Of a stretch of DNA of 64,000 nt, positions 18,926 through 62,798 are shown in pieces. The notes beneath the pieces are model-generated. The model was not told the DNA's origin. It searched no databases and worked only from the letters and a program-made list of their open reading frames with translations. Position numbers and translations under genes: made by a program. The stretch lies in the IMG/VR virus record IMGVR_UViG_3300047548_000985, positions 1 to 64,000 of that record; one strand, 5' to 3'. The stretch comes from a virus. How positions within the stretch are numbered: position 1 is the first letter of the stretch; each line of letters starts with the position of its first letter.

Positions 18926-18937
18926 GAATGTTCCTCT

Positions 18938-19081
18938 TTATTCATCACCTCGGATTTGAACGTACACTTCTTCATTATTAGGATCAAAAATCTTGATTGC
19001 TGAAGAAAAATGTACGCCCGAAATCTCGTTTGGTTTAGTGTTTTGTACGTCTTTTGACTGCTGTTCAGGTTGATTTTCCAT
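18938..19081 (-). CDS. 47-aa mini-protein sharing the N-terminal motif of the 206-aa structural protein
   Basis: Read from ATG at 19081 to TAA at 18938-18940 on the minus strand: MENQPEQQSKDVQ, a short linker, then SGVHFSSAIKIFDPNNEEVY and VQIRGDE. The core GVxxxxxIKIFDPNxxEVYV is the same motif as LGVEGFFKISDPNTNEVFV in the next gene, so this is either a small paralogue or a split-off N-terminal module. It fills the gap between the 5574-aa giant and the 206-aa gene, carries that gene's ribosome site in its last codons, and has a late promoter only 6 bases before its ATG. The motif match supports it as a real gene despite its size. Confidence 0.8.
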   Translation of the reverse strand: MENQPEQQSKDVQNTKPNEISGVHFSSAIKIFDPNNEEVYVQIRGDE

Positions 19082-19087
19082 ATTAAT

Positions 19088-19095
19088 TATTTATC
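19088..19095 (-). promoter_or_regulatory. T4-type late promoter (GATAAATA) 6 bases before an ATG
   Basis: GATAAATA on the minus strand is followed by ATTAAT and the ATG of the 47-aa gene. With the usual late spacing, transcription would start about at the A of the ATG, giving a leaderless message; no Shine-Dalgarno sequence is present. The same geometry occurs before the portal gene. Confidence 0.65.
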
Positions 19096-19099
19096 AATT

Positions 19100-46910: not shown

Positions 46911-47546
46911 TCACAAAAGGATTTTAAACTTGCAATTATCAAAATGATACCTATTCATGTTTGTTACCCCACCCTCTTTTCCACAGTGGGTGCATATTAC
47001 AGTTCTTTGGGGACCTCTAGGTACACCTAATTTTTTTGCACTCAATTCAGGTCTTTTTTTACCTTTTAACTTACTAGGTTTACCAGTCTTTCCAGCACTA
47101 ATTGCAGGATTCTTTTTGCCCTTTCTTGCCCTATTTGACTCTGCTAACTTTGCTGCATGAGACGGAGATTTAGGTTTTCCTTTTAACGGACTAGGTATCC
47201 CTTTCTTAGCATCACTCATCCTTTTTCTAGTCTCTTCACTCCTGATACAACCTGATGCACCTTCACCGCCGTCCGTTTTATTTCTTAAAATTCCTTTGTT
47301 TAGGTCTTTCCTGCCATACCACCTAATCATTCTACGTTCGACGGCAAGAGCACCTAATTCAGTTAAATTGGATTCAAGAATTACAATTCTTTCATTGTTA
47401 TTTGGTGCGCTAATGGGTTCGCATTTCATTTTTATCCAGGCGCGGTGACCTTTGCCCTTCCCAATATAATACGGTGAGCCGTCTTTTCTAAGATAGGCGT
47501 ATACATAAAAACCAAATGGTGGATTTTTTCTTGAATAAATAGACAT
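46911..47546 (-). CDS. GIY-YIG homing endonuclease with NUMOD3 motifs (Seg-like, free-standing)
   Basis: 211 aa. The catalytic GIY-YIG core is at the N-terminus: FYVYAYLRKDGSPYYIGKGKGHRA with the usual Y-Y-G and Arg, then Glu in LAVERRMIRWYGR near residue 75, then KTDGGEGASG. It is followed by NUMOD3-type DNA-binding repeats (RSEETRKRMSDAKKGI; SPSHAAKLAESNRARKG) and basic KGKK linkers, and ends with a CTHC...HFDNC zinc-finger-like pair. Such enzymes cut phage genomes lacking the gene and spread it by repair. It stands between the tail module and gp55. The ribosome site AAGGAG is strong, and a leader hairpin and late promoter precede it. All core residues appear intact. Confidence 0.92.
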   Translation of the reverse strand: MSIYSRKNPPFGFYVYAYLRKDGSPYYIGKGKGHRAWIKMKCEPISAPNNNERIVILESNLTELGALAVERRMIRWYGRKDLNKGILRNKTDGGEGASGCIRSEETRKRMSDAKKGIPSPLKGKPKSPSHAAKLAESNRARKGKKNPAISAGKTGKPSKLKGKKRPELSAKKLGVPRGPQRTVICTHCGKEGGVTNMNRYHFDNCKFKILL

Positions 47547-47622: not shown

Positions 47623-47651
47623 TTGATATTTTGCCGTATCTATATTATACT
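47623..47651 (+). promoter_or_regulatory. Sigma70-type promoter for gp55
   Basis: TTGATA (47623-47628), a 17-base spacer, and TATACT (47646-47651): four of six and five of six matches to consensus at ideal spacing. Start of transcription would be near 47658, so the first usable start codon is the ATG at 47676 with AAAAGG as ribosome site. This shows that the late sigma gene itself is read by host-type polymerase. Confidence 0.75.
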
Positions 47652-47675
47652 TTCCATACTAAAAGGCAACCATCA

Positions 47676-48590
47676 ATGACCATACAATCCTCCCTACCAC
47701 CTGCAAAAAAAGTAAACTATTTAAATAATAAAGACATCTTGAAAGAGATTCATCTAAGCAAGAACTCATACTGTTCATTCAAGACAGAAGAGGATAACAA
47801 ATATGACCTAATCATAGATTTTCCGCATGAACCTCTAGAGAGGTCGTTTGAATATATGTTAAAAGAAGACACCCTTGAAAAGGCAAAGGAAAAAAGGGCT
47901 GCTAGGATTTTTGTTGAGACTGGAGAAAAAGTCGATTGCTCAACTATCCAAACGTCCGACTTAGTATTCAGAGTCATGACATGGGATCATATTCCACTTT
48001 CAAATAAAAAGCCAAAGAAAGTCGAAGCAAAGAAATCCGTAAAGGAAATATTTGCATTCGAGGAAGACGATAGCGAACCCTCATTTGAAGATTTAGAAGA
48101 TGTCGCAACTAAAGGGGAGGTTGACGACATGGTGCATGTTAAAGTAAACTTTCCTCCATTCCAGCATTTCAAGATTGACAAAAACAACTCAGTCGAGTGT
48201 GTGGGTAAGAGTCATTGGAAAGGTACAATCAACGACGGTGAATTTTGTAAAGATCATGGTCAGATCACCGACAAACTTGCCCGAATATACATTATGATGT
48301 GTGAAAAGTACGCAATGAAATACAACTGGCGAGGGTATACTTATAATGACGAAATGAGAAACAGCGGAATTCTTCAGCTAACTTATGTAGGACTTAGATT
48401 CAACGAAGCCAAAAGTGTAAACCCGTTTTCGTATTTTACACAAGTAATAACAAATAGCTTCTTACGCATTCTTAATTTGGAGAAGAAAGGTCAGAATCTG
48501 CGAGATGATATTCTAGAGATGAATGGGCTAAACCCATCATATACTAGACAGTTTAATAACTCTAGATCGCTGTCATCAGACGGTGACTGA
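47676..48590 (+). CDS. 55: Late-transcription sigma factor gp55
   Basis: 304 aa from ATG 47676; a longer TTG start at 47631 would lie inside the promoter and is rejected. The C-terminal 110 residues match gp55: QITDKLARIYIMMCEKYAMKYNWRGYTYNDEMRNSGILQLTYVGLRFNEAKSVNPFSYFTQVITNSFLRILNLEKK (read in pieces), which is the sigma region 2-like core that binds polymerase and melts the TATAAATA box. The N-terminal 190 residues are an extra acidic and lysine-rich extension (FAFEEDDSEPSFEDLEDVATKGEVDD) absent from T4 gp55 (185 aa in total). It would act with the sliding clamp gp45 on the NATAAATA promoters found through this window. Confidence 0.9.
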   Translation: MTIQSSLPPAKKVNYLNNKDILKEIHLSKNSYCSFKTEEDNKYDLIIDFPHEPLERSFEYMLKEDTLEKAKEKRAARIFVETGEKVDCSTIQTSDLVFRVMTWDHIPLSNKKPKKVEAKKSVKEIFAFEEDDSEPSFEDLEDVATKGEVDDMVHVKVNFPPFQHFKIDKNNSVECVGKSHWKGTINDGEFCKDHGQITDKLARIYIMMCEKYAMKYNWRGYTYNDEMRNSGILQLTYVGLRFNEAKSVNPFSYFTQVITNSFLRILNLEKKGQNLRDDILEMNGLNPSYTRQFNNSRSLSSDGD

Positions 48591-48639: not shown

Positions 48640-49650
48640 ATGAGCAATTTATTTAAAAAAGCGGCAGTTCTTACTGACCTACACGTTGGACTAAAAAACA
48701 ATAGTGTAGTTCATAACGAAGATTGTATTCAATTCGTTGAATGGTTTATTGAATCTGCAAAAAAGGAAGGATGTGATGTTTGTCTTTGTTTAGGTGATTG
48801 GCACAATCATAGGGCTACAATTAACATTCTTAGCCTAAACTACTCTATGCGGTGTTTGGAAAAGCTGAACGCAGGATTTTCCAAAGTCTATTTTATTACT
48901 GGTAATCATGATCTTTTTTATCGTGAGAACAGAACCGTTCATAGCGTAGCTTGGGCAGCGTATCTGCCAAACGTTGAAGTAATTAATGACATTTGGTCAG
49001 AGGGAGATGTTACATTGTGCCCTTGGCTCGTCGGTGACGAGAACAAAAAGTTAAAGAAGATCAAGACCAAATATACATTTGGGCACTTTGAACTTCCCAA
49101 TTTTTACATGAACGCACAAATCTTGATGCCTGATCACGGACAATATACTGAAGATATGTTTAATGGAACTGAACATGTCTTCAGTGGTCACTTTCATAAG
49201 CGTCAAACTAACAAGAATATTACTTACATCGGGAACGCATTCCCACACAACTATTCAGATGTTGGTGATAAAGAACGTGGAATGATGATTTTGGAATGGG
49301 GGAAAGCACCAAAATTTTATTCTTGGCCTAATCAACCATTGTATAATGTGTTTTCACTTAGTGAAATCCTAGACAAGCCAGAAGATTTACTCATACCAAA
49401 AAGTCATGTAAAAGTAAATCTTGATATTCCGATTAGTTACGAGGAAGCAAACTTCATTAGAGAGACTCTGATCCCGCAATACAATTTGCGAGAAATGGCT
49501 CTTATTCCTGCAAAATCAGAGGAGTTATTTGATACTGCATCTGAAACGAAATTTGAAAGTGTAGACAAGACTGTTATTGATCAAATCAATTCCATCGACA
49601 GTAAAACATACGACAAGAAGATTCTATTGGAAATTTATAATTCTCTATGA
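48640..49650 (+). CDS. 47: Recombination endonuclease subunit gp47 (SbcD/Mre11 family)
   Basis: 336 aa. The calcineurin-like phosphoesterase motifs are in order: TDLHVGL (motif I DxH), CLGDWHNHR (GDxxH), ITGNHDLFYR (GNHD), and near residue 180 FSGHFHKRQ (GHxH), followed by YIGNAFPHNYSD. These bind two Mn ions for the 3'-5' exonuclease and endonuclease action on dsDNA ends. gp47 works with ATPase gp46 in recombination-dependent replication and host DNA breakdown. The last codons overlap gp46 (ATGA at 49647-49650), so the two subunits are translationally coupled. Confidence 0.95.
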   Translation: MSNLFKKAAVLTDLHVGLKNNSVVHNEDCIQFVEWFIESAKKEGCDVCLCLGDWHNHRATINILSLNYSMRCLEKLNAGFSKVYFITGNHDLFYRENRTVHSVAWAAYLPNVEVINDIWSEGDVTLCPWLVGDENKKLKKIKTKYTFGHFELPNFYMNAQILMPDHGQYTEDMFNGTEHVFSGHFHKRQTNKNITYIGNAFPHNYSDVGDKERGMMILEWGKAPKFYSWPNQPLYNVFSLSEILDKPEDLLIPKSHVKVNLDIPISYEEANFIRETLIPQYNLREMALIPAKSEELFDTASETKFESVDKTVIDQINSIDSKTYDKKILLEIYNSL

Positions 49651-51713
49651 TTCAAATCAAACACGTTACGCTAAAAAACTTCCTAAGCATTGGACAAGCA
49701 ACACAATCTGTAAATTTTGACAGCAAAGATTTAACTCTCATCTTAGGTGAAAATTTGGATTTGGGTGGTGACGGTGCTCGTAACGGCACTGGGAAAACCT
49801 CTCTGATCCAAGCATTGTGTTATGGATTGTTTGGTCAACCAATTAACAATATTCGAAAGGATAATCTAATCAATCGTACAAATGGCAAAGCAATGCTTGT
49901 AACGGTTGATTTTAGTGTTGGGAAAAAGAACTACCGAATTGAACGGGGAAGGAAGCCAAACATCCTTAGGTTTTATGTTGACAACGAACAACAAAAAACC
50001 CAGGATGATGCTCAGGGTGAGAACAAAGAGACACAAGCAGCAATTGAAAAAATTCTTTGCATGTCACCTGACCTCTTTAGACACATTGTTGCCTTAAACA
50101 CCTATAGCGAACCTTTTCTGGCCATGAAAACAAATGATCAGAGAATGATTAGCGAACAATTGCTGGGCGTTACTCTACTAAGCGAAAAGGCAGAAAACCT
50201 AAAGACGCTAATCAAAGAAACTAAGGATTCAATCCAATCAGAAGAGTTCAGAATCAAAGCCATTGCGGAAGCAAACAAACGGGTATCTGAACAAATTGAA
50301 AGCCTAAAACGTAGAGAAAAACTTTGGATTGCCAAGCACAATGAAGACCTGAATAAACTTATCACCGAATACGATGAGCTATCCAAAATTGACATTGTAA
50401 CAGAATTGCAGGCGCACAAAGATTTAATGGTTTGGGTCGATGCAAAGAAACACAACGATGATTATGAATCGTTGTTGGCTCGCCAATCTGCTTGGAAACA
50501 AAAGCAACAAACGGATATCCAAACACTAGAAAAAAAGCTTGCGAAACTAAACAACGTTGATATTCTTTCAGAGCTAAAGGCGCATAAGGAGTTGGCGTTA
50601 TACAACCAACTTGTCAAAGATGCTGCAAACCAAGCGACGGAGAAAAAACGCATCATAAAGGATTTGGAGAAAGCCAAATCGCAAGTTACCAAATTCACCG
50701 AAGAGGTACAAACTCTTCTTGATCACAAATGTTATGCATGTGGTCAAGAATTTCATGATGCTAGTCATACTGAAGTACTTGCAAAGAAACAACAGTCCCT
50801 AGCAGAAGCAGAAAGTGATGCTACTCAATTGCAGAGTAAACTATCAGAACTGAATAATTCTGAGATTGTTGTAGGTGAAAAACCCGAAACTCATTATAAG
50901 CTTGAATCAGAGGCGTTTCAACATTCTGGATTGATTCAACAAGTCGAAGGACAAATCCGAGACAAAAAGAATGAGATTGATCCATATGCAGAACAAATTT
51001 CAGAAATGACTCTAATTGAGTTAGGAGAAAAACCCAAAACCCATTATACTACAGAGGCAGAGGCAGTAAAACATAGTTCTCGTGTAGATACTTTGGGATC
51101 GGAAATTTTAAAGAAAACCGAGGAGTCTGATCCATACTCAGAACAAATTTCAGAGATGGAGCAGAATGCAATCCAAGAAGTCAACTTTGATACTATAAAT
51201 GACCTGAATGCAAAATTAGATCATCAAAAGTTCATTCTTGATCTTCTAACCAGTAAGGATAGCTTTGTCAGAAAGAAAATTATTGACCAAAATTTATCAT
51301 ACTTGAATCGAAGGCTTACACATTATCTTGACAAAATGGGACTACCGCATCAAGTTGTTTTCAAAAACGACCTATCAGTCGAGATTACCGAACTAGGTAG
51401 AGACTTAGACTTTCATAATCTTTCCCGTGGAGAAATGTCCCGAGTGATTCTATCGCTATCATGGGCGTTCTTGGACGTTTGGGAATGCCTATACCAACCA
51501 ATTAACCTACTGTTAATTGATGAATTGCTTGATGGTGGCATGGATTCAATTGGAGTAGAAAATGCAATGAGCATTCTAAAAGAAATGAATCGCGGACGTA
51601 AGAAGTCGGTTTGGCTAATTTCTCATCGTGAAGAACTAGTTAGTCGTGTAGGTAGCGTTCTAAAGGTTGTAAAAGAAAATGGTTTTTCTACCTATCAAAG
51701 TGACGAGACATAA
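49647..51713 (+). CDS. 46: Recombination endonuclease ATPase subunit gp46 (SbcC/Rad50 family)
   Basis: 688 aa. Walker A GARNGTGKTSLIQALCYGLFG (residues about 43-63), long coiled coils (about 180-330 and 380-560), a zinc hook CYAC near residue 363 (DHKCYACGQEF), ABC signature LSRGEMSRVILSLSWAF near 590, Walker B LLLIDELLD, and a switch His in WLISHREEL. This is the complete Rad50-type ABC ATPase layout with a single CxxC hook for dimer bridging. Within the second coiled coil, two segments repeat (VGEKPETHY...DPYAEQISEM and LGEKPKTHY...DPYSEQISEM), a small internal duplication of about 45 residues. Confidence 0.95.
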   Translation: MIQIKHVTLKNFLSIGQATQSVNFDSKDLTLILGENLDLGGDGARNGTGKTSLIQALCYGLFGQPINNIRKDNLINRTNGKAMLVTVDFSVGKKNYRIERGRKPNILRFYVDNEQQKTQDDAQGENKETQAAIEKILCMSPDLFRHIVALNTYSEPFLAMKTNDQRMISEQLLGVTLLSEKAENLKTLIKETKDSIQSEEFRIKAIAEANKRVSEQIESLKRREKLWIAKHNEDLNKLITEYDELSKIDIVTELQAHKDLMVWVDAKKHNDDYESLLARQSAWKQKQQTDIQTLEKKLAKLNNVDILSELKAHKELALYNQLVKDAANQATEKKRIIKDLEKAKSQVTKFTEEVQTLLDHKCYACGQEFHDASHTEVLAKKQQSLAEAESDATQLQSKLSELNNSEIVVGEKPETHYKLESEAFQHSGLIQQVEGQIRDKKNEIDPYAEQISEMTLIELGEKPKTHYTTEAEAVKHSSRVDTLGSEILKKTEESDPYSEQISEMEQNAIQEVNFDTINDLNAKLDHQKFILDLLTSKDSFVRKKIIDQNLSYLNRRLTHYLDKMGLPHQVVFKNDLSVEITELGRDLDFHNLSRGEMSRVILSLSWAFLDVWECLYQPINLLLIDELLDGGMDSIGVENAMSILKEMNRGRKKSVWLISHREELVSRVGSVLKVVKENGFSTYQSDET

Positions 51714-51734: not shown

Positions 51735-52319
51735 ATGATAAGTAGTTGTATGCCATCAGCGTCAAAAATTAAAGGATCAGGATTTGAAAGGGAAATTGCA
51801 AAGTACCTTTCAGACCTTTACGGAGAAAGTTTCGTAAGGGCCGCACATTCAGGAGCTTTCGTTGGTGGCACTAACCAGACTCGCAAGGAGTCATTATCTG
51901 AATCACAGATCAGAGGTTTTAAAGGCGACATTATCCCGGGTGACAGTTTCTCTCTGCTAAACGTAGAGTGTAAATTCTACGGAGATTTCGCATTCCATAG
52001 TTTGTTTACTGGAAAACACAGCCAGTTAGACAAATGGCTTGAACAACTTCTTGATGCTGCTGATGAAGGTGATCTATCTGTACTTTTCATGAAGTTCAAT
52101 CGCCGCGGTCGTTATGTTGCAGTTCAAGCTGCATTGACTTGGGTGACTGACTTTTTCTTCTTCTACGGAAGCAAAAAGTACGGAGATTGGTATATTATGG
52201 AAATGGAAACATTCTTTAGGCTCAACAAAGACTTATTTAAGGCATATTCAGGCACCACGCCACAACTCAATACTGACTCAAATAATAGCTCAACTGATAC
52301 CAAATCTAACCCAACATAA
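51735..52319 (+). CDS. PD-(D/E)XK nuclease, Holliday-junction-resolvase-like
   Basis: 194 aa from ATG 51735; the ATG at 51750 (MPSASKIKGSGFERE) is an equally good start since neither has a strong ribosome site. The pattern is that of small phage resolvases: GSGFEREIAKYL (first Glu), VRAAHSGAFVGG, FKGDIIPGD (metal Asp), LNVECKFY (ExK), then WLEQLLDAADEGDLSVLFMKFNRRGRYVAV. Such enzymes cut branched DNA or act as structure-specific nucleases. Position after gp46/gp47 supports a recombination role. The last 20 residues are a disordered Ser/Asn/Thr tail. Confidence 0.8.
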   Translation: MISSCMPSASKIKGSGFEREIAKYLSDLYGESFVRAAHSGAFVGGTNQTRKESLSESQIRGFKGDIIPGDSFSLLNVECKFYGDFAFHSLFTGKHSQLDKWLEQLLDAADEGDLSVLFMKFNRRGRYVAVQAALTWVTDFFFFYGSKKYGDWYIMEMETFFRLNKDLFKAYSGTTPQLNTDSNNSSTDTKSNPT

Positions 52320-52321
52320 AA

Positions 52322-52905
52322 CTCAAAATGAGGGCCTTTGCAGTTCTAGTCCGATGAAGAAGTAGAGAACTGAGACAATTTGTTTGATCGGGGCTTGCTC
52401 GATCCTCCTTGAGATTGTACAGGTTGTGCTGTGCCGTCAGATTCTGGAGAAGGCGATGTTGCGAAGATAAAGCAACATTCGGAATACCGACAGGGCTCTC
52501 GTTATGAGTGCGAACCCTGAATGAGTCTATAGCTTACTCTGTTTATTGCGGCTATAGAACATGCGTCGATTTCAACTAGTAAACCGTATCACATAAAAAC
52601 TGGTATAGGTTGAAGCTTGAACTGCGGCCCCTATGAATACCTTACAGGTCGACCGGTGGCGGTGCATCAGCCAGATAATAGCTATTTGCATCGAGGGGAT
52701 AAACAGCAAAGGAGGAAACGAAAGTATCTTAACCTTTGGTAGTGCTGAAACAGCACTACCATGGATTCCTCGAAAGTGAGTAAAAGAAAGACAGATTAAA
52801 TATTACTCCTAATCACTTAAAGAATTATTAAGAATAAAAAAGAATCCTGAATGATTGCGAACGTAGTGAGCAAGAATGAAGGATTATTGACCGAAGGTCA
52901 ATTAC
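52322..52905 (+). ncRNA. Candidate large structured non-coding RNA (about 450-580 nt)
   Basis: No convincing gene lies here, yet nested complementary stems fill it. Examples: 52341-52347/52366-52372 (7 bp); 52455-52462/52472-52479 (8 bp, one GU); 52491-52495/52515-52519; 52526-52533/52551-52558 (8 bp); 52571-52576/52609-52614; 52628-52632/52694-52698 stacked on 52660-52666/52687-52693 (5+7 bp, one GU) with an inner hairpin at 52639-52649; 52712-52717/52766-52771 enclosing the perfect 10-bp hairpin 52738-52747/52751-52760 with an AAA loop; 52843-52848/52880-52885; and 52886-52892/52896-52902. Unpaired parts are A/G-rich on the plus strand, which favours that strand. GC is raised (29 of 60 in 52441-52500, 33 of 60 in 52621-52680) in an AT-rich genome. 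Size and ornate folding recall phage RNAs such as GOLLD or ROOL, but I cannot assign a class. Confidence 0.55.
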
Positions 52906-52932
52906 CTACTAAGAGAAATGAATAGCTATGGC

Positions 52933-55900
52933 TTAAGCTCTTGCGTAGTCCAACGACTTCCCTTGTAGTCTTGTCGATCTCTCTAGCAGATCAATCACCT
53001 CATCTAACTTACTTAAAATCTCACCTCCCATCTTTAAATTACTAGAATCATCAGGTCTTGCTTGTGCATTTACAGCGGAGATCAATTGATCTAGTTTTCC
53101 TGAAAGAGCGGTTACACCAGACATATCTCCTTGTGATAATTTTTGTTCATTTGCAATGTTCATAGGAGCAGGTGCTCTTGCCATTTGAACTCCAGCTGCT
53201 GTTGCTTGAGGAGGTTCAGTTGGTGGGGTCGGAGCAACTATTGGGGCAGTCGTAGGTGCTGTTGTCGGGGCAGATGCGACTTTAGGTTCAGGTACAGTTA
53301 CAGGCTTGTTTATGTCAGCAGGTATTGAACCAAACTGCGCTCTGTATTCATCCGCAAACGCCTGTGCCGCAGTCGTTGGTTTTTTCCTAGAGTTTGCAGG
53401 TGAAGCAGCCGATGCAACTGCGGTTGATCCAGTTGGTTGTGCTGGAGAGGTTGGAGCAGAGATTGAGCCGTCTAACTGTGCGTGTATATGACCACCGGTT
53501 GCGTTTCTACTGGGGTTATTATACTCATCAATTGCCCCACTGAATCCCATTTGTTTAAGCGCAGCAACAATTTGCTTGCCTTCTTCAACTGTTGGAGGCT
53601 TTGTCAAGGTAAAATCGACTGCTTTACCTTGAGTATGCATACTGTTTGGAGTTTCTCTGATATGGAAACGATCATTAAATCCAGTGAATGCATGGAATCC
53701 AGGAATAGAGGATTGAATCTGTTGGGCTAGCCCTATCATTCTGCTATCTAATGACGCATTAGGTGCCTGAACATCTCCTTGCTTTATTTTCAATCCGGCT
53801 GCTCTTAGCATTTCTTCGCTTGAAGTTATGCTTGAAGCAGCAGAAGCTACGGATGGTGTTGCAGGAGATGAACCTAGAAGAGCCAACGCATTATTTTTTC
53901 TGTTTGCAACTTCAGTCCCGGCTGATCGCTCGTACTTTTTATCTACTACGGCAGCGGCATCTTCTGCGGTTCTTGTTTGACGCAGAGAATCACCTGCTTG
54001 TTTCTCAGTGTTTTTTAGTTCCCAATCAACATATGCAAGTTGTTCTTCAAGGGTGGCAGATTTGACTTCTTTTCCGTACATCTGACGAAACCGTTCAAGT
54101 CTATCATTTCTCCATTGAGCGATTCCTTGTGCATTTTCTTTTTTGTTAAATGCAGTTGTTGACAGATCCTTACCAGATTCTTGTTGGAGATTACCAACAA
54201 TGCCCGCTGCTTGCTCTCTTGTCCATCCCTGTTTGATAAAGAACTCCATTGCTTTAGTAGCGTTTGGAGTTGCGCCTAACCCTGCTGCTGCATTCCCACC
54301 TTGTGTTGCAGCGGGTAACCCGCCTAGTTCCTTCATTCGGGATTGGGCAGCCGCAGTTTCTTTAGCAACACCTAAGTCTACAGCACCCTTCATTCCCATT
54401 GATGAAAGGAAGGTGTTGAATGCTTCGTTGTTTTGTTTAAACTTTAATGGGTCAATCTTTAAATTGGCAAACTCTTCGAATTTTTCGGTTATGGTCTTGC
54501 CGTCAAACTTCTTAGAAAGATTATCTGATATTGTGTTTGCTAACGTTGATCCCTTAACAGCCTTTACGTTAGAGAAGGCTTCCATGCCTTCAGCAAATGC
54601 TTTGAAACCTTCAGCCTTAGTTTTGAAGTCTTCAATGCTGCCCGTGATTTTTATCTCACTGAATTTCAAAAGTTTCTTAGCAAGATCATCAATGTTAATA
54701 CCAGCACCAAAAAAGTCGGCTATCTTGGAGAGCAAGGTACTTGAACCTGTTCCTGCTCCTTGATACGAACTTAATGCTTGATCGAATGCAGCCAATGCTT
54801 CTGCGTTTCTAGTAACTATCTCTTTGCTTACGTTGATAGAGTTAAATGTTTCTATTTTTTTCTTCAATGAGGCAAGATCAACGTTTAGGAAGTCAAAGTT
54901 ATTTAACCAAGCTCCTGCACCTGCACCTGCACCTTGGTAAGAGCTTAACGCTTGATCAAAAGTTTTTAGTATGTCTGCATTTACTATAATCTTTTCCTTA
55001 CTATTAGGACTAAATTGTGCAAATTCATCAATAAAACTTTTTATTCTCTTTGCTAAAGCTTCAAAGTCTACATTCAACGAATCGAAGTTATTTAACCAAG
55101 TACCTACTCCTGCTCCTGCTCCTTTGTATTCACCTATCGCAGAGTCAAACGCCTTTAAAATGTCAGCGTTCGATATTATTATGTCTTTCTTAGATGAGTC
55201 AATCTTTTGATTTTCAAATGATTTAATGAAGCTGTTTATTCTCTTTGCTAAAGCTTCAAAGTCTACATTCAACGAATCGAAATTTCCAAGCCAATTACTA
55301 ATGCTTCCGCCCTTGTAGCCACTCATTGCATCGTTAAATGCCTTCAGAGCGTTTGCATTTTTTGTAATTTTATCAGTGTCACCTAGTTCAAGCTTGCTAA
55401 AATCAATAAATCTATCCCAAGGTGTTTTGACTTCGAAGAACTTCGACAACCCTTCTGCGATTCCGATAGAAATAGTTGTACCACCTTTAAGTTTAGACAT
55501 TGCTTCGGCAAATGCTCTTAATGCTTCAGCGTTAGTTTTTACCTTGGGTGCATTTTCTATTGGTAACTTAGAAAACTCTACAAATCTGTCCCATGGGGTC
55601 TTGACTTCAAAGAAGTTTGCTAATCCTTCTGCAAGAACACCCGAAATTGTTATCCCACTCTTAAGGGCACTCAATCCTTCAGCAAAAGCTCTTAATGCCT
55701 CTGCATTGTTTTTCACCTTGGCAGAATCATCTATTGGTAACTTAGAAAACTCTACAAATCTGTCCCACGGAGTTTTAACGTCAAAAATAGAGAAAAGTTT
55801 TTCTGCTATTGCACCTGTAATTGAAGCACTTCCGTTACTTAGGGCAGCCATAGCTTCCCCGAATGCTAGTAATGCTTCTGCGTTTGTTTTTAGTTTAGGT

Positions 55901-58900
55901 CCGTCTATTGGAAGATTTGAAAAATCTGCAATCTTCTCAAATGGTGTCTTTCCGCCAAAGAACCCAACTAGCCCGTCGACGATACTCGATGCTACATTAG
56001 CAAAGCTTGCTGCCACACCACCGGCAGCAAATACAGCTAATCCACCGCCTAATGCGGTAATTCCTAATCCAACATCAACTAGGTTGTCACCATCGATTCC
56101 TGAGAATGCTGCCACTCCTTCGGCAAATGTTGGAAGTGCCTTGCCTATTAACCACATTGATGCAGCAGCTCCTGCAGAAATCAATGCGATTGCACCGGAG
56201 AAGATTGCGGCTCCTTTAAGTATTAATGGATTAGCGAACGCAGTAAGACCACCTGCAATTCCTTGTAAAATGCCTTGAATTGCTCCACCTGCTCCTGCTC
56301 CAATGCCTTGGATGAATCCTCCTAGTCCCTTTCCTAAGTCAGTTATCTTACTACCAAAGCTAGGTCCGGTGCGTTCTGAAAGAGAGGATAAATTATCCAT
56401 TCCCTTTGCTGACGTAGTAGGTAGATTTCCTGCAATACCTTCTCCGGCTTTTGCTGCTCGCAAGTCTTCAAAGAATTTTTTACGAGCGGCTTTCCCAGCT
56501 TCAGTTGATGCCCTGTTCCTGTATCTGATACTGCCACGTGTTTCCTTGAATGTTTTCAAAAATGCAGCATTATCTGCATCTCTTGCTTGTCGTTTTATAG
56601 AATCTCCTGTCCAACGAGGAGTTCCAATTCCTGTTGCAGCAGTGCTGACTGCCTTAGTAGCATTACCTGCTGTTGCTGCGGTATTTTCGGATAAGGTTGA
56701 TCCTAACTTTCCAGCAGCATCACCTAGTGGTTTTAATAGCTTCTTACTAAGGACAGTGGTAAGAACACCTGCTATTGCTATGCCAGCATAAGACCAGTCT
56801 AGTAACTTATTGGAATCTAATTCAATTCCAGTTTTATCTTTAATCCAATCTCTAAATGTATCTACTGCGGTACTAAATTTGTCAACACCACTATTAAATT
56901 GAGAAGCATTAGTTGCGTATCTTTCAATTGCTGCACCCAATTGAGTAAACACCATAGCTTGAAGCTTTGCTTGTGATTGTCGATCATTCTCAACTGCCCC
57001 AATGTATTTTTCTACATTTGGATCTAATTTTTCACCTCTCTTTTGAGCCTCTCTTTGATCTTCTACAAATTTGGCTATTGTCTCAGCGTCATCTTTTCCA
57101 GTTTTTTCTTTGACTGTTCTTCTCAACCCCTCTTGGGCACGGGTAAAATCATTTGCCGCTGCAAATGTGTCACCAAACAGAGAAGTAAATATGCCGCTAT
57201 CGATCTTAACTCCACCGGCGTATATTTTTTGTTGTTTGGTAAGTTGCTCACCTACCGTTAGCATCGCTTGTGCAGTATCCTGCTTCTCTACTGCCTGCAA
57301 TCCTCCTTGACCCATCATTGTTTGATAGGCTGCTGAATTCTTGTCAACCGCTCCACCTGCGGCGTAGTATCTAGCAGCACCTGCGGCTAGGTTAGTAAGC
57401 CCCTTTGCTTGTAGCTGAGTAGCAATATCTTCCGCTTTTTTTAGTCTAGCTGCCTTTTCGAAATCACCGCTTGCTTCTGCTTCGACTTGTGCAGCTCGCA
57501 ATTCGCTTATAGATTGAATTGCTTTTCGCGCTTCTTCTTGCTCTTTTCTAGTTGCACCTGTTATTGCTGCAAGTTTGTCAAGCTCCTCCATATAAGCATA
57601 TGCGCCTTTTGTAAGGTCTGCTTGTGACTTGTTTGCTAACGTTCCGCGTTTAGCTTCAGCAGCCATGTACTGCACAATATGCTCATTTTGCTCTTCAGTT
57701 GTAATACCTAAGCGTAATAAGCTTTTTCCTAATTCATTTGTGGGGCTCGTTATCGAACTAGCAACAGAAACAAACTTGTCAGCGCCATCCCCAACTGAGG
57801 CACCGAACAATTTCATTTCTTTTGCGTTATTGGTTATTAACGAAGTGTATTGTTCAGTGGAAATACCTAGCTTTTGTTGATTTCTAAAGATATTCTCAAA
57901 ACCGCCGCTAGTTGTTCCAGATACTTTTCCAAGCTCATTGAATGATTTGTATAAATCCTCGCCTTGTTTAGACGCAAGCTCGTTTAACTTTGCACCTGCT
58001 TTTGCCGTAGTACCAAATAATGCAAGCGCACCGCCTGCAAATCTTGCTGCTAGTCCTAATCCAGGAATGAGCATTAATGCGAAGCCGATTCCTTGTGCAG
58101 CACTTCCTAGTGTGTCTGCAAACTTGGTAGTGGCTTCGGCACTAACCATTGCACCTCGTCTACCCTCATAAATTGCAGAGGTGTAGCTCTTTATAGCAAG
58201 AACGCTTCCGCTTATTGCAGCCGTAAGCAGTTGTGTGGTTGCACTAAGGCCTATGTTCTGTTTATTTGTCTCTAAAAACTGCTCTGAAAGCTTTGATGAT
58301 GCTTCTCCTAACGAATTAATTCTCTTTGATGCGTATTGGAATCCTTCTAGGTCTAAATTCTTTTGTCGTTCTATTCTTTCTAAAACTTTTTCTAGCTTGT
58401 CAGTATCAACTTCCGCGCCTTTTCCGATCTGTTCGGCGCCCCTTGGTATTTTTAAACTTTGTCTTTCGGCTTTAGTTAAACCTAGTTCATTTAGCTTTGC
58501 TAGCTGGTCATTATCAAGTTTTACAGTAGATCTACCTTCAACTTTAGCCTTTTCTAAAACGTCGTTTAGGTCAATATCCTTTTCAAGAAGGCCTTTTCTT
58601 TGATTGGATCTAAGATCGTTTACAGGAGATGCAGCAGAGGTAGTAGCTCCTGTTATTTCTACTAACTTTGCCTGAAGATCACCAAATATATCAATCAACG
58701 CTTCTACTTGATTGTTGTATTCCTTTTGAAGAGGTATTGTCTTCTCTTTGGTTAACTTTTCCTCCTCTTCACGAAGCGGAATGGTCTTTTCTTTTGTATG
58801 TTGATCTACTGCTTCAAGAGTTGTGTCGCCTTTGACTGTGGTTTTTAATTCAGGTAGTTTAAATAAAGCAAGTTGGTTTCTAAACAGGTCAAATGCGTTT

Positions 58901-59499
58901 TTTGTTTCTAAAATGGATGCGTTCAATCCACTAGTGTCGATGCTCTTTATTTTTGGTAACGCAAGACTGGCTATCTTTCCTTTAAACTCTTCAAGATCAG
59001 TTTGAATTTTGCCAATTGATTCTGTTAACCCACTGGTATCGATTGATCCAATAGCAGGTAATTCAAACCCTTTTATTAAGTTATTGAAGTTGTCAATCGA
59101 TGATTGTATATCACCTATTGAGCGATTAACTGAAGACGTATCAAACGTAATATTTTCTAGTTTACTTTTGAATGTGGTGGTAGAGGCAAGGATGTCATTA
59201 AAAAATGGATCTAATCTTTTGGCATCAAGAGACGTAACAAACATGTCAAAGACAGTTTTGACATCAGTTAAGCTTTTGTTGAAGTTATTCAGAATAGCCG
59301 CAGTTCTACCTTGAGTAGAAGCTAGCATGCCGAGATTAACTGAAATTTGCCTAAAGTTGTTTTGAAGGTCGCCTTTGGAGCTGTTTAAGTTGTTGTTTAT
59401 CTGTGATATTTCACCTGATGTACCAAGTAATGTATCTCGCATGCCTATTGTAGCGGCACGAAACTCTTCCAACAGTGCATTTAGTTCTTGATCATCCAT
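52933..59499 (-). CDS. Tail tape-measure protein with C-terminal lysozyme and M15-type peptidase domains (2188 aa)
   Basis: N-terminal coiled coils (IGMRDTLLGTSGEISQINNN) with three SIDTSGLxxSI repeats, a helical middle, and a hydrophobic stretch near residues 1070-1127 (IFSGAIALISAGAAASMWLIG) typical of tape measures. Residues about 1210-1690 hold tandem repeats: 58-aa units with EVKTPWDRFVEFSKLPI, then 65-aa units with NFDSLNVDFEALAKRI. Near 1749-1873 is a phage-tail-lysozyme-type domain (GWTREQAAGIVGNLQQES, AQGIAQWRNDRLERF). Near 1919-2005 is a zinc D,D-peptidase (M15/VanY-like) with HTQGKAVDF and GGHIHAQL, giving the H-x6-D...H-x-H metal set. The two domains would cut glycan strands and peptide cross-links as the tail tip crosses the wall, which fits gp5 having lost its own lysozyme domain. 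The protein sets tail length. Confidence 0.85.
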   Translation of the reverse strand: MDDQELNALLEEFRAATIGMRDTLLGTSGEISQINNNLNSSKGDLQNNFRQISVNLGMLASTQGRTAAILNNFNKSLTDVKTVFDMFVTSLDAKRLDPFFNDILASTTTFKSKLENITFDTSSVNRSIGDIQSSIDNFNNLIKGFELPAIGSIDTSGLTESIGKIQTDLEEFKGKIASLALPKIKSIDTSGLNASILETKNAFDLFRNQLALFKLPELKTTVKGDTTLEAVDQHTKEKTIPLREEEEKLTKEKTIPLQKEYNNQVEALIDIFGDLQAKLVEITGATTSAASPVNDLRSNQRKGLLEKDIDLNDVLEKAKVEGRSTVKLDNDQLAKLNELGLTKAERQSLKIPRGAEQIGKGAEVDTDKLEKVLERIERQKNLDLEGFQYASKRINSLGEASSKLSEQFLETNKQNIGLSATTQLLTAAISGSVLAIKSYTSAIYEGRRGAMVSAEATTKFADTLGSAAQGIGFALMLIPGLGLAARFAGGALALFGTTAKAGAKLNELASKQGEDLYKSFNELGKVSGTTSGGFENIFRNQQKLGISTEQYTSLITNNAKEMKLFGASVGDGADKFVSVASSITSPTNELGKSLLRLGITTEEQNEHIVQYMAAEAKRGTLANKSQADLTKGAYAYMEELDKLAAITGATRKEQEEARKAIQSISELRAAQVEAEASGDFEKAARLKKAEDIATQLQAKGLTNLAAGAARYYAAGGAVDKNSAAYQTMMGQGGLQAVEKQDTAQAMLTVGEQLTKQQKIYAGGVKIDSGIFTSLFGDTFAAANDFTRAQEGLRRTVKEKTGKDDAETIAKFVEDQREAQKRGEKLDPNVEKYIGAVENDRQSQAKLQAMVFTQLGAAIERYATNASQFNSGVDKFSTAVDTFRDWIKDKTGIELDSNKLLDWSYAGIAIAGVLTTVLSKKLLKPLGDAAGKLGSTLSENTAATAGNATKAVSTAATGIGTPRWTGDSIKRQARDADNAAFLKTFKETRGSIRYRNRASTEAGKAARKKFFEDLRAAKAGEGIAGNLPTTSAKGMDNLSSLSERTGPSFGSKITDLGKGLGGFIQGIGAGAGGAIQGILQGIAGGLTAFANPLILKGAAIFSGAIALISAGAAASMWLIGKALPTFAEGVAAFSGIDGDNLVDVGLGITALGGGLAVFAAGGVAASFANVASSIVDGLVGFFGGKTPFEKIADFSNLPIDGPKLKTNAEALLAFGEAMAALSNGSASITGAIAEKLFSIFDVKTPWDRFVEFSKLPIDDSAKVKNNAEALRAFAEGLSALKSGITISGVLAEGLANFFEVKTPWDRFVEFSKLPIENAPKVKTNAEALRAFAEAMSKLKGGTTISIGIAEGLSKFFEVKTPWDRFIDFSKLELGDTDKITKNANALKAFNDAMSGYKGGSISNWLGNFDSLNVDFEALAKRINSFIKSFENQKIDSSKKDIIISNADILKAFDSAIGEYKGAGAGVGTWLNNFDSLNVDFEALAKRIKSFIDEFAQFSPNSKEKIIVNADILKTFDQALSSYQGAGAGAGAWLNNFDFLNVDLASLKKKIETFNSINVSKEIVTRNAEALAAFDQALSSYQGAGTGSSTLLSKIADFFGAGINIDDLAKKLLKFSEIKITGSIEDFKTKAEGFKAFAEGMEAFSNVKAVKGSTLANTISDNLSKKFDGKTITEKFEEFANLKIDPLKFKQNNEAFNTFLSSMGMKGAVDLGVAKETAAAQSRMKELGGLPAATQGGNAAAGLGATPNATKAMEFFIKQGWTREQAAGIVGNLQQESGKDLSTTAFNKKENAQGIAQWRNDRLERFRQMYGKEVKSATLEEQLAYVDWELKNTEKQAGDSLRQTRTAEDAAAVVDKKYERSAGTEVANRKNNALALLGSSPATPSVASAASSITSSEEMLRAAGLKIKQGDVQAPNASLDSRMIGLAQQIQSSIPGFHAFTGFNDRFHIRETPNSMHTQGKAVDFTLTKPPTVEEGKQIVAALKQMGFSGAIDEYNNPSRNATGGHIHAQLDGSISAPTSPAQPTGSTAVASAASPANSRKKPTTAAQAFADEYRAQFGSIPADINKPVTVPEPKVASAPTTAPTTAPIVAPTPPTEPPQATAAGVQMARAPAPMNIANEQKLSQGDMSGVTALSGKLDQLISAVNAQARPDDSSNLKMGGEILSKLDEVIDLLERSTRLQGKSLDYARA
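55246..55875 (-). repeat. 174-bp tandem repeats in the tape-measure gene
   Basis: The segment TCTRTCCCANGG (reading KTPWDRF on the minus strand) occurs at 55411, 55585 and 55759, exactly 174 bases (58 codons) apart. A second repeat type of 195 bases follows toward the 3' end of the gene (TGCTAAAGCTTCAAAGTCTA at 55051 and 55246). Both keep the frame. Confidence 0.85.
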
Positions 59500-59525: not shown

Positions 59526-59533
59526 TATAAATA
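59526..59533 (+). promoter_or_regulatory. T4-type late promoter (TATAAATA) for the gp26-portal operon
   Basis: A perfect TATAAATA 53 bases before the ATG at 59587; the ribosome site AACAGGAGC precedes the start. It is 9 bases from an oppositely directed late box for the tape-measure gene. Confidence 0.8.
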
Positions 59534-59586: not shown

Positions 59587-60417
59587 ATGCTAGATAATAA
59601 CCCATTAAAACAATATTTTCGTAGACCGGCCCTTTACGTTAAGCTTCCAAGTGAAGGAAAGTACTACAACGCAAATATTGTCGATATGCCTGAAAATGGC
59701 GAACTTCCAGTTTATCCAATGACTGCGATTGATGAGATAACAAGTAAAACACCTGACGCCCTTTATAACGGAATGGCAATTGTCGAGATCATCAAGAGTT
59801 GTATTCCTTGCATCAAAGATCCTTGGCAGATTTCAAGTATGGATTTGGACGCATTGCTAATTGCTATTCGAATGGCTACAAATGGCAACGAAATGGATTT
59901 AGAAAGCACTTGCCCTAGTTGTACAGAAGAAAACAAGTATGGCTTAAACCTATCGCTTATTTTAGGAAGTTTGAAGCCTGGTGACTATACAGCAGAATTA
60001 AAGGTTGATGGATTGTCTATCAAGTATAGACCATTGACATATAAAGAAGCAAATCAGGGAAATACGGCTCAGATTGAAATGCAGCGAGTTCTCAACAATC
60101 TGGCAACTCTTCAGGACGAAGATCAACGTACTAAGGCAAGTAGTGATGGTTTAAAAAAGATTAGTAAAATTAGTATGGAAATCGTTGCGAATACAGTTGA
60201 ATCTATTACATTGCCGGATGGTGTAAAAGTTGAAGACAAGAAGTATATTCTTGAGTTCTTAACCAACTGTGACAAAAAGACCTATGCTGCGGTTAGGGAC
60301 TTTAGCGTTAAGCTAAGAGAAAGTACAGAAATAAAACCTTTACATTTCAAGTGTGCAGACTGCGGGCATGAGTATGATCAACCATTCACGTTGAATATTT
60401 CTGATTTTTTCGAATGA
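59587..60417 (+). CDS. 26: Baseplate hub assembly protein, gp26/gp51 family (T4_baseplate)
   Basis: 276 aa with the conserved start LPSEGKYYNANIVDMPENGELPVYPMTAIDEITSKTPDALYNGMAIVEIIKSCIP and then DPWQISSMDLDALLIAIRMATNGNEMD, the signature of the T4-like base plate protein usually named gp26 in cyanophages. Two zinc-ribbon-like CxxC pairs are visible (CPSC near residue 115; CADC near 261), probably one metal site. In T4 the gp26 and gp51 proteins help hub assembly without staying in the virion. The gene overlaps the next by ATGA, and a late promoter lies upstream. Confidence 0.85.
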   Translation: MLDNNPLKQYFRRPALYVKLPSEGKYYNANIVDMPENGELPVYPMTAIDEITSKTPDALYNGMAIVEIIKSCIPCIKDPWQISSMDLDALLIAIRMATNGNEMDLESTCPSCTEENKYGLNLSLILGSLKPGDYTAELKVDGLSIKYRPLTYKEANQGNTAQIEMQRVLNNLATLQDEDQRTKASSDGLKKISKISMEIVANTVESITLPDGVKVEDKKYILEFLTNCDKKTYAAVRDFSVKLRESTEIKPLHFKCADCGHEYDQPFTLNISDFFE

Positions 60418-62790: not shown

Positions 62791-62798
62791 TATAAATA
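62791..62798 (+). promoter_or_regulatory. T4-type late promoter (TATAAATA) for the prohead core gene
   Basis: A perfect TATAAATA directly after the terminator hairpin and 36 bases before the ATG at 62835, with AGGAGA (62821-62826) as ribosome site. It is the best example of the late box in the window. Confidence 0.85.

Follow-up and report, generated by a model that had tools for sequence, protein, structure and literature searches.

We describe a conserved structured RNA encoded in a 64,000-nucleotide (nt) stretch of viral DNA (positions 1 to 64,000 of IMG/VR record IMGVR_UViG_3300047548_000985; hereafter the window), where it lies between a PDDEXK resolvase gene, the last of a recombination operon, and a convergent tape-measure-like gene (feature coordinates in Table 1). 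Between these flanks no open reading frame (ORF) of at least 60 amino acids (aa) is found from 52320 to 52932, a gap of 613 nt. A reading of the bare sequence (the original prediction) had proposed a structured RNA at 52322-52905, of an unnamed phage class or GOLLD/ROOL-like, and had stated that no other gap exceeds 150 bases; this is slightly off, with a runner-up ORF-free stretch of 174 nt (18926-19099), and the 613-nt gap is still the longest. The conserved part of the proposed interval begins near 52377, and the first ~55 nt are found in this phage only. G+C content, thought to stand well above its surroundings, rises only slightly (41.9% in the RNA, 38.6% in the upstream 2 kb, 43.3% in the next gene and 38.6% in the window), and the reported purine richness of unpaired segments is a mild excess (58% of unpaired vs 48% of paired positions). 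No tRNA or tmRNA was found in the interval. Every + frame holds ~7 stops, which indicates that the RNA is non-coding, and no ORF is common to homologues. The + strand folds at -169.4 kcal/mol (z = -4.43, with 0 of 100 dinucleotide shuffles as good), and the minus strand gives z = -3.64 against dinucleotide shuffles.

A search of viral contigs with the resolvase protein yielded 80 loci, and a second such search yielded 80 loci that all carry the RNA (80/80). A separate DNA pattern taken from the RNA itself found at least 120 IMG/VR contigs, and a second RNA-derived pattern recovered the same locus type; exact matches to an 18-nt stretch of the window (GGTGGCGGTGCATCAGCC) were due to chance alone (loci L002-L007), and pattern matches in genome contigs (L208-L211) were also chance. 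Alignment of 60 distinct sequences shows strongly conserved blocks downstream of the resolvase stop codon at ~60-65% overall identity, and a profile hidden Markov model (HMM) detects the RNA in 201 of 207 loci, the remaining six being chance matches. A covariance model of the window-type RNA (R1), built with the window itself excluded, matches the window at E 1e-29. The RNA falls in a length class of about 400-530 nt and is present once in each of six contigs of 155-525 kb, so at least some carriers are jumbo phages. On the contig of L167 the RNA match is weaker than usual, and the resolvase match (L347) crosses two in-frame TAA codons.

Covariation was assessed with a tree-based null modelled on R-scape, using 98 sequences below 95% identity (mean pairwise identity 59%). 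At E<0.05, 25 column pairs were recovered, ~20 of them base-pair compatible and within helices; neighbours or non-pairing columns make up the remainder. In a 95-pair structure model counted on 59 diverse sequences, 89.8% of cells are paired, compared to 32-41% with partners slid by 1-3 columns, a control that somewhat favours the model because its structure string had been derived from a single sequence together with the covariation scan. Shuffles and two-sided changes depend less on the choice of string: 65 of the 95 model pairs show two-sided changes, double-change cells number 806 as compared to 96-207 (slid) and 271 (shuffled), and the covariation score is 0.395 vs 0.06-0.09 in controls. 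The clearest single proof of the predicted conserved fold is offered by pseudoknot P7, in which all six pairs form in 57 of the 59 sequences through ~19 sequence combinations (e.g. CUGUUU/AAACAG, UUGUCU/AGACAA and UCACUU/AAGUGA). G-U cells outnumber A-C cells in the same sequences (354 vs 145), which identifies the + strand as the functional one, and 28 unpaired columns are invariant. Homologue alignment and covariation analysis, suggested together with the original prediction, have in this way shown conserved stems with covarying pairs, and the idea of an unnamed structured phage RNA class is borne out by extensive + strand covariation among ~100 distinct homologues. That this conserved, folded + strand RNA is functional appears virtually certain.

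These pairings show a predicted core in which two pseudoknot helices (P7 and P10) lock a four-way junction, together with a 5' arm (P1-P3) and 3' hairpins. P4, P5, P6 and P8 meet at the junction with linkers of at most 2 bases, the 3' strand of P8 running straight into that of P4, and both P7 and P10 cross P4/P8. What had been described as a nested 5+7-bp stack at 52628-52698 is two real helices, P10 and P11, of which P10 is a pseudoknot rather than a nested stem; its aligned columns show one-sided changes, with two-sided swaps (UCCC/GGGG to CUCC/GGAG or CCUC/GAGG) read by eye. The perfect hairpin noted at 52738-52760 is real and corresponds to P12. The 5' arm of P1 overlaps the resolvase stop codon in some relatives (L160, L173), and P9 of L162 holds an insertion of about 170 nt. 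A conserved CCUCCUU was considered as an anti-Shine-Dalgarno mimic and rejected, as its CUCC forms half of helix P2a and covaries with its partner in L018 and L198. The terminal hairpins at 52855-52903 are probably the 3' end of the RNA or a terminator between the convergent genes; a T-run terminator was not found at the RNA 3' end.

Table 1. Genes and RNA elements at the locus (window coordinates)
Feature	Coordinates	Strand	Evidence
Late sigma factor gp55	47631-48590	+	PHROG match
gp47	48640-49650	+	PHROG match
gp46	49647-51713	+	PHROG match
PDDEXK_15 nuclease, Hjc-like Holliday-junction resolvase, directly 5' of RNA	51735-52319	+	Pfam PF24608 E 3.7e-26; PHROG 244
Conserved structured RNA, whole extent	52377-52903	+	nhmmer/blastn homology in 201/207 early loci
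P1 hairpin	52386-52404	+	5 pairs covary at E<0.05
P2a (52405-08/52446-49) enclosing P2b (52413-22/52429-38)	52405-52449	+	pair counts
P3 variable hairpin	52454-52481	+	covariation scan, pair counts
P4 long-range helix (52485-89/52654-58), closing four-way junction	52485-52658	+	98% of cells paired
P5 hairpin (52491-95/52515-19) with P5b (52499-501/52511-13)	52491-52519	+	100% paired, 3 covarying pairs
P6 hairpin, loop forms pseudoknot P7	52521-52562	+	99.4% paired, 10/11 pairs covary
P7 pseudoknot, P6 loop (52539-46) with AAACAG (52701-06)	52539-52706	+	97.7% paired, 5/6 pairs covary
P8 long-range helix (52565-69/52649-53)	52565-52653	+	100% paired, 3 covarying pairs
P9 variable peripheral arm, insertion-tolerant	52570-52621	+	66.7% paired
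P10 second pseudoknot helix (52628-31/52694-97)	52628-52697	+	93.7% paired
P11 hairpin (~52660-71/52681-93)	52660-52693	+	92.9% paired, 9/10 pairs covary, significant pairs
P12a (52707-12/52733-38) and near-invariant P12 hairpin (52739-60)	52707-52760	+	P12a 76%, P12 99.8% of cells paired
Two 3'-terminal hairpins, including P13 (52887-52903)	52855-52903	+	covarying pairs in P13
Tape-measure-like gene, convergent	52933-59499	-	tblastn to tape-measure/tail lysin proteins, ~6% of protein

Across relatives the RNA starts within tens of bases of the resolvase stop codon, sometimes overlapping it and always on the same strand, and in many loci it begins at the stop codon itself. Because the RNA abuts or overlaps this codon, many relatives have no room for a separate promoter, and the proposed origin in the gp55-gp46-resolvase transcript fits. 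A promoter of its own, the other suggested source, was tried and rejected: an AT-rich TATAAAATA precedes the RNA in some relatives and others start at the stop codon. No TATAAATA lies near the RNA in the window; exact copies of this T4-type late promoter consensus occur at 59526-59533 and 62791-62798, preceding the + strand ORFs at 59587 and 62835 by 54 and 37 nt, and its count in the window (3) is not above chance. Spacing between resolvase and RNA exceeds 250 nt in 0 of 171 distinct RNAs, whereas insertions part gp46 from the resolvase in 62 of 152 (Fisher p 1e-24). In one later locus, L348, ~190 nt are added between resolvase and RNA, and P9 carries a 170-nt insertion. Insertions are common in this operon and some are homing endonucleases; in the window a homing-endonuclease-like gene (NUMOD3; PHROG homing endonuclease) lies beside the late sigma gene at 46911-47546 (-).

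The RNA-linked resolvases form a monophyletic group, with four residues of PD-(D/E)XK catalytic type (E18, D65, E78 and K80) invariant across homologues. The modelled fold weakly resembles archaeal Hjc, the source of the top 10 PDB matches to an AlphaFold model (best E 7.8e-4). On the other side of the RNA a baseplate-hub gene lies downstream in all 162 loci with enough sequence and is convergent in those examined. In the window the tape-measure gene, not the hub gene, adjoins the RNA, and the segment 52933-60641 (a 75-aa ORF, baseplate hub and tape-measure) is apparently inverted relative to relatives, with a breakpoint just 3' of the RNA.

An Rfam covariance-model scan, another check suggested at the outset, matched no family at gathering or permissive thresholds in the window or 20 relatives, and the window RNA does not match the GOLLD or ROOL models. 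We conclude from the lack of an Rfam match that the RNA is neither GOLLD nor ROOL, the suggested identity, and its genomic setting also differs. No credible blastn match to named phages was found for five representative RNAs, and no covariance-model match was found in the whole genomes of PA5oct, Phosso and SCTP-2, the named phages whose portal and resolvase proteins are closest. No description of this RNA was found in the open-access literature.

One catalogued motif occupies the same slot in a sister branch. Resolvase relatives without the window-type RNA (L295-L299) have a long gap there in 4 of 5 loci, and in L295 and L297 the resolvase is immediately followed by a match to RF01718, the Polynucleobacter-1 RNA catalogued without a function (Weinberg et al., 2010; PMC2864571). 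In the open-access literature searched, the name Polynucleobacter-1 turned up in one paper. RF01718 itself has no match in the window, its genome or 18 close relatives. Gene order in the sister slot is gp46, nuclease, RNA and baseplate hub; window-type loci also have gp46 upstream and the convergent hub downstream. A sister motif, GGTACMGSMCAACCGCC, resembles the window-type block UACAGRGCAACCG, and scanning with it found at least 120 contigs; of the 120 among the matches listed, 106 carry gp46, the hub gene or both. RF01718 matches 7 of 17 tested loci bearing the motif, each time just 5' of it, and nine loci have it in the slot (L295, L297, L350, L356, L361, L371, L377, L381 and L384). Alignment of the sister core shows, in the same succession as in the window type, a hairpin resembling P5, then P6, whose loop enters a pseudoknot, and P8 with its GUUG/CAAC pairing. 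In both types the loop of the P6-type hairpin pairs 3' of the P8 3' strand, with the GUUG/CAAC P8 also present. A first, distance-based test of P7 in sister loci was uninformative; aligned counts, used instead, show P7' 94.2% paired with 7 of 7 pairs covarying and P8' 98% paired, and do not support P4 in this group (53% paired). Polynucleobacter-1 is thus alike in its slot and in the P5-P6-P8 order and P6-loop pseudoknot of the core that follows it, and differs in that RF01718 spans a 141-nt 5' domain only, with the shared core outside the Rfam model.

Direct matches between window-type and sister models are weak, and the similarity is transitive via bridging sequences. R1 matches a carrier of the sister motif (L468) at E 6e-9 and L353 at E 0.13; the sister model R2 matches, among others, L353, L360 and L299 at E 1e-4 to 3e-6, L468 weakly (E 0.75) and window-type loci not at all; a third model, R3, weakly matches L402, L439 and L383 at the motif (E 0.02-0.4); and an HMM of the 5' part matches L360 at E 3e-5. 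These bridges support a shared descent of the two types, which is likely but not proved for every branch, and the window RNA is likely an undescribed, divergent lineage within a superfamily of phage RNAs that is represented in Rfam by a single domain.

Directly before the RNA, a SegE-type GIY-YIG nuclease rather than PDDEXK is encoded in at least 58 of 94 sister loci. Across L349-L468 the gene just 5' of the motif is usually of SegE type and elsewhere PDDEXK, an apparent exchange of nuclease families beside a conserved RNA. A strict tie of the RNA to the PDDEXK resolvase is weakened, as most sister loci have a GIY-YIG gene or no nuclease. L353, L363, L387 and similar loci have a 63-aa Hc1 histone-like gene after gp46, followed by ~700 nt without a longer ORF before the motif; in this group the RNA may be longer, or a second RNA may be present.

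On balance we favour an arrangement in which the recombination-operon transcript (gp55-gp47-gp46-resolvase-RNA) would carry the conserved noncoding RNA as its 3' end. The RNA would be cut out of, or protected at, the mRNA 3' end and would act as a stable RNA during infection; going by sequence and gene order, such a processed stable RNA is somewhat the likelier reading. Its leading candidate partner would be the adjacent structure-specific nuclease, Hjc-like in the window and SegE-type GIY-YIG in most sister loci, and the four-way-junction core is a candidate binding site through which the RNA might control or assist DNA-junction processing. The placement of a four-way junction next to a junction resolvase hints at such a link, and nuclease-RNA adjacency persists across the change of nuclease family in the sister branch. 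Several observations weigh against such a partnership. The fixed position may reflect conserved gene order alone, the baseplate hub also being always downstream in relatives; PA5oct, SCTP-2 and Phosso have the same resolvase family with no RNA detected; no clear clade-specific basic patch was seen on RNA-linked resolvases; in some sister loci (L353 type) no nuclease gene was found immediately before the RNA; and four-way junctions are frequent in RNAs unrelated to DNA junctions. We hold the nuclease partnership as a tentative possibility, and regard as more speculative still the wider idea that the superfamily core serves structure-specific phage nucleases as a dedicated partner and was kept while the nuclease was swapped between unrelated families.

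Known systems offer partial likenesses. Mrs1, a junction-resolvase fold that binds structured RNA (PMC2813881), is a precedent for recruitment of a Holliday-junction-resolvase fold to such an RNA; it differs as a RuvC-type protein acting with a group I intron, has no sequence relation, and in the window system binding is only a candidate. IS110 bridge RNA and TnpB reRNA (PMC11208160, PMC11061315) resemble the window system in layout alone, each having a structured RNA next to the gene of a nuclease or recombinase; the window RNA showed neither a variable guide segment nor mobility.

The strongest alternative, though a less likely one, is a cis-acting 3' untranslated region (UTR) whose fold stabilises the operon mRNA, regulates resolvase output or ends transcription, with no RNA acting in trans. 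The RNA abuts or overlaps the resolvase stop codon, is never separated from the resolvase, lies between convergent genes and ends in hairpins, all as this would predict, and Polynucleobacter-1 was apparently rated likely cis-regulatory in its discoverers' table (PMC2864571). However, two pseudoknots and 28 invariant unpaired columns are a size and conservation beyond the needs of a terminator or exonuclease block, and the sister-branch upstream gene switches family while the core RNA stays. A self-assembling ornate RNA forming a homo-oligomer, as in GOLLD and ROOL, is improbable: the RNA is likewise large, in a similar size class, phage-borne, with several pseudoknots and an unexplained function (compare PMC12286853), but it lacks any sequence or model match, is fixed between nuclease and baseplate genes rather than near tRNAs or in tRNA islands, and had no conserved palindromic kissing loop noticed, without a systematic test. 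A ribozyme, intron or mobile-element relic is more improbable still. Large pseudoknotted RNAs are often catalytic and insertions, homing endonucleases included, are common in the operon; yet this RNA does not split any gene, is present as one copy per genome, accompanies a monophyletic resolvase group and matches no ribozyme family at permissive thresholds. Chance folding, a decayed gene or an assembly artefact is practically dismissed, for although single-sequence folding by itself says little, compensatory changes in at least 120 contigs, the tree-based null and the pair counts refute it.

The processed, stable RNA from the recombination-operon transcript is thus the reading we retain, with low confidence in any specific function. 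To our knowledge very few large phage RNAs have been described, and we know of none in this genomic setting. The window-type branch is new, and one domain of the superfamily (RF01718) was already catalogued in 2010. These results add a large phage RNA class with a clear conserved tertiary architecture in common uncultured phages, account for Polynucleobacter-1, an orphan motif in Rfam, as a single domain within a larger phage RNA, and raise the question of what role an elaborate RNA plays at the end of a DNA-recombination operon beside a Holliday-junction-type nuclease.
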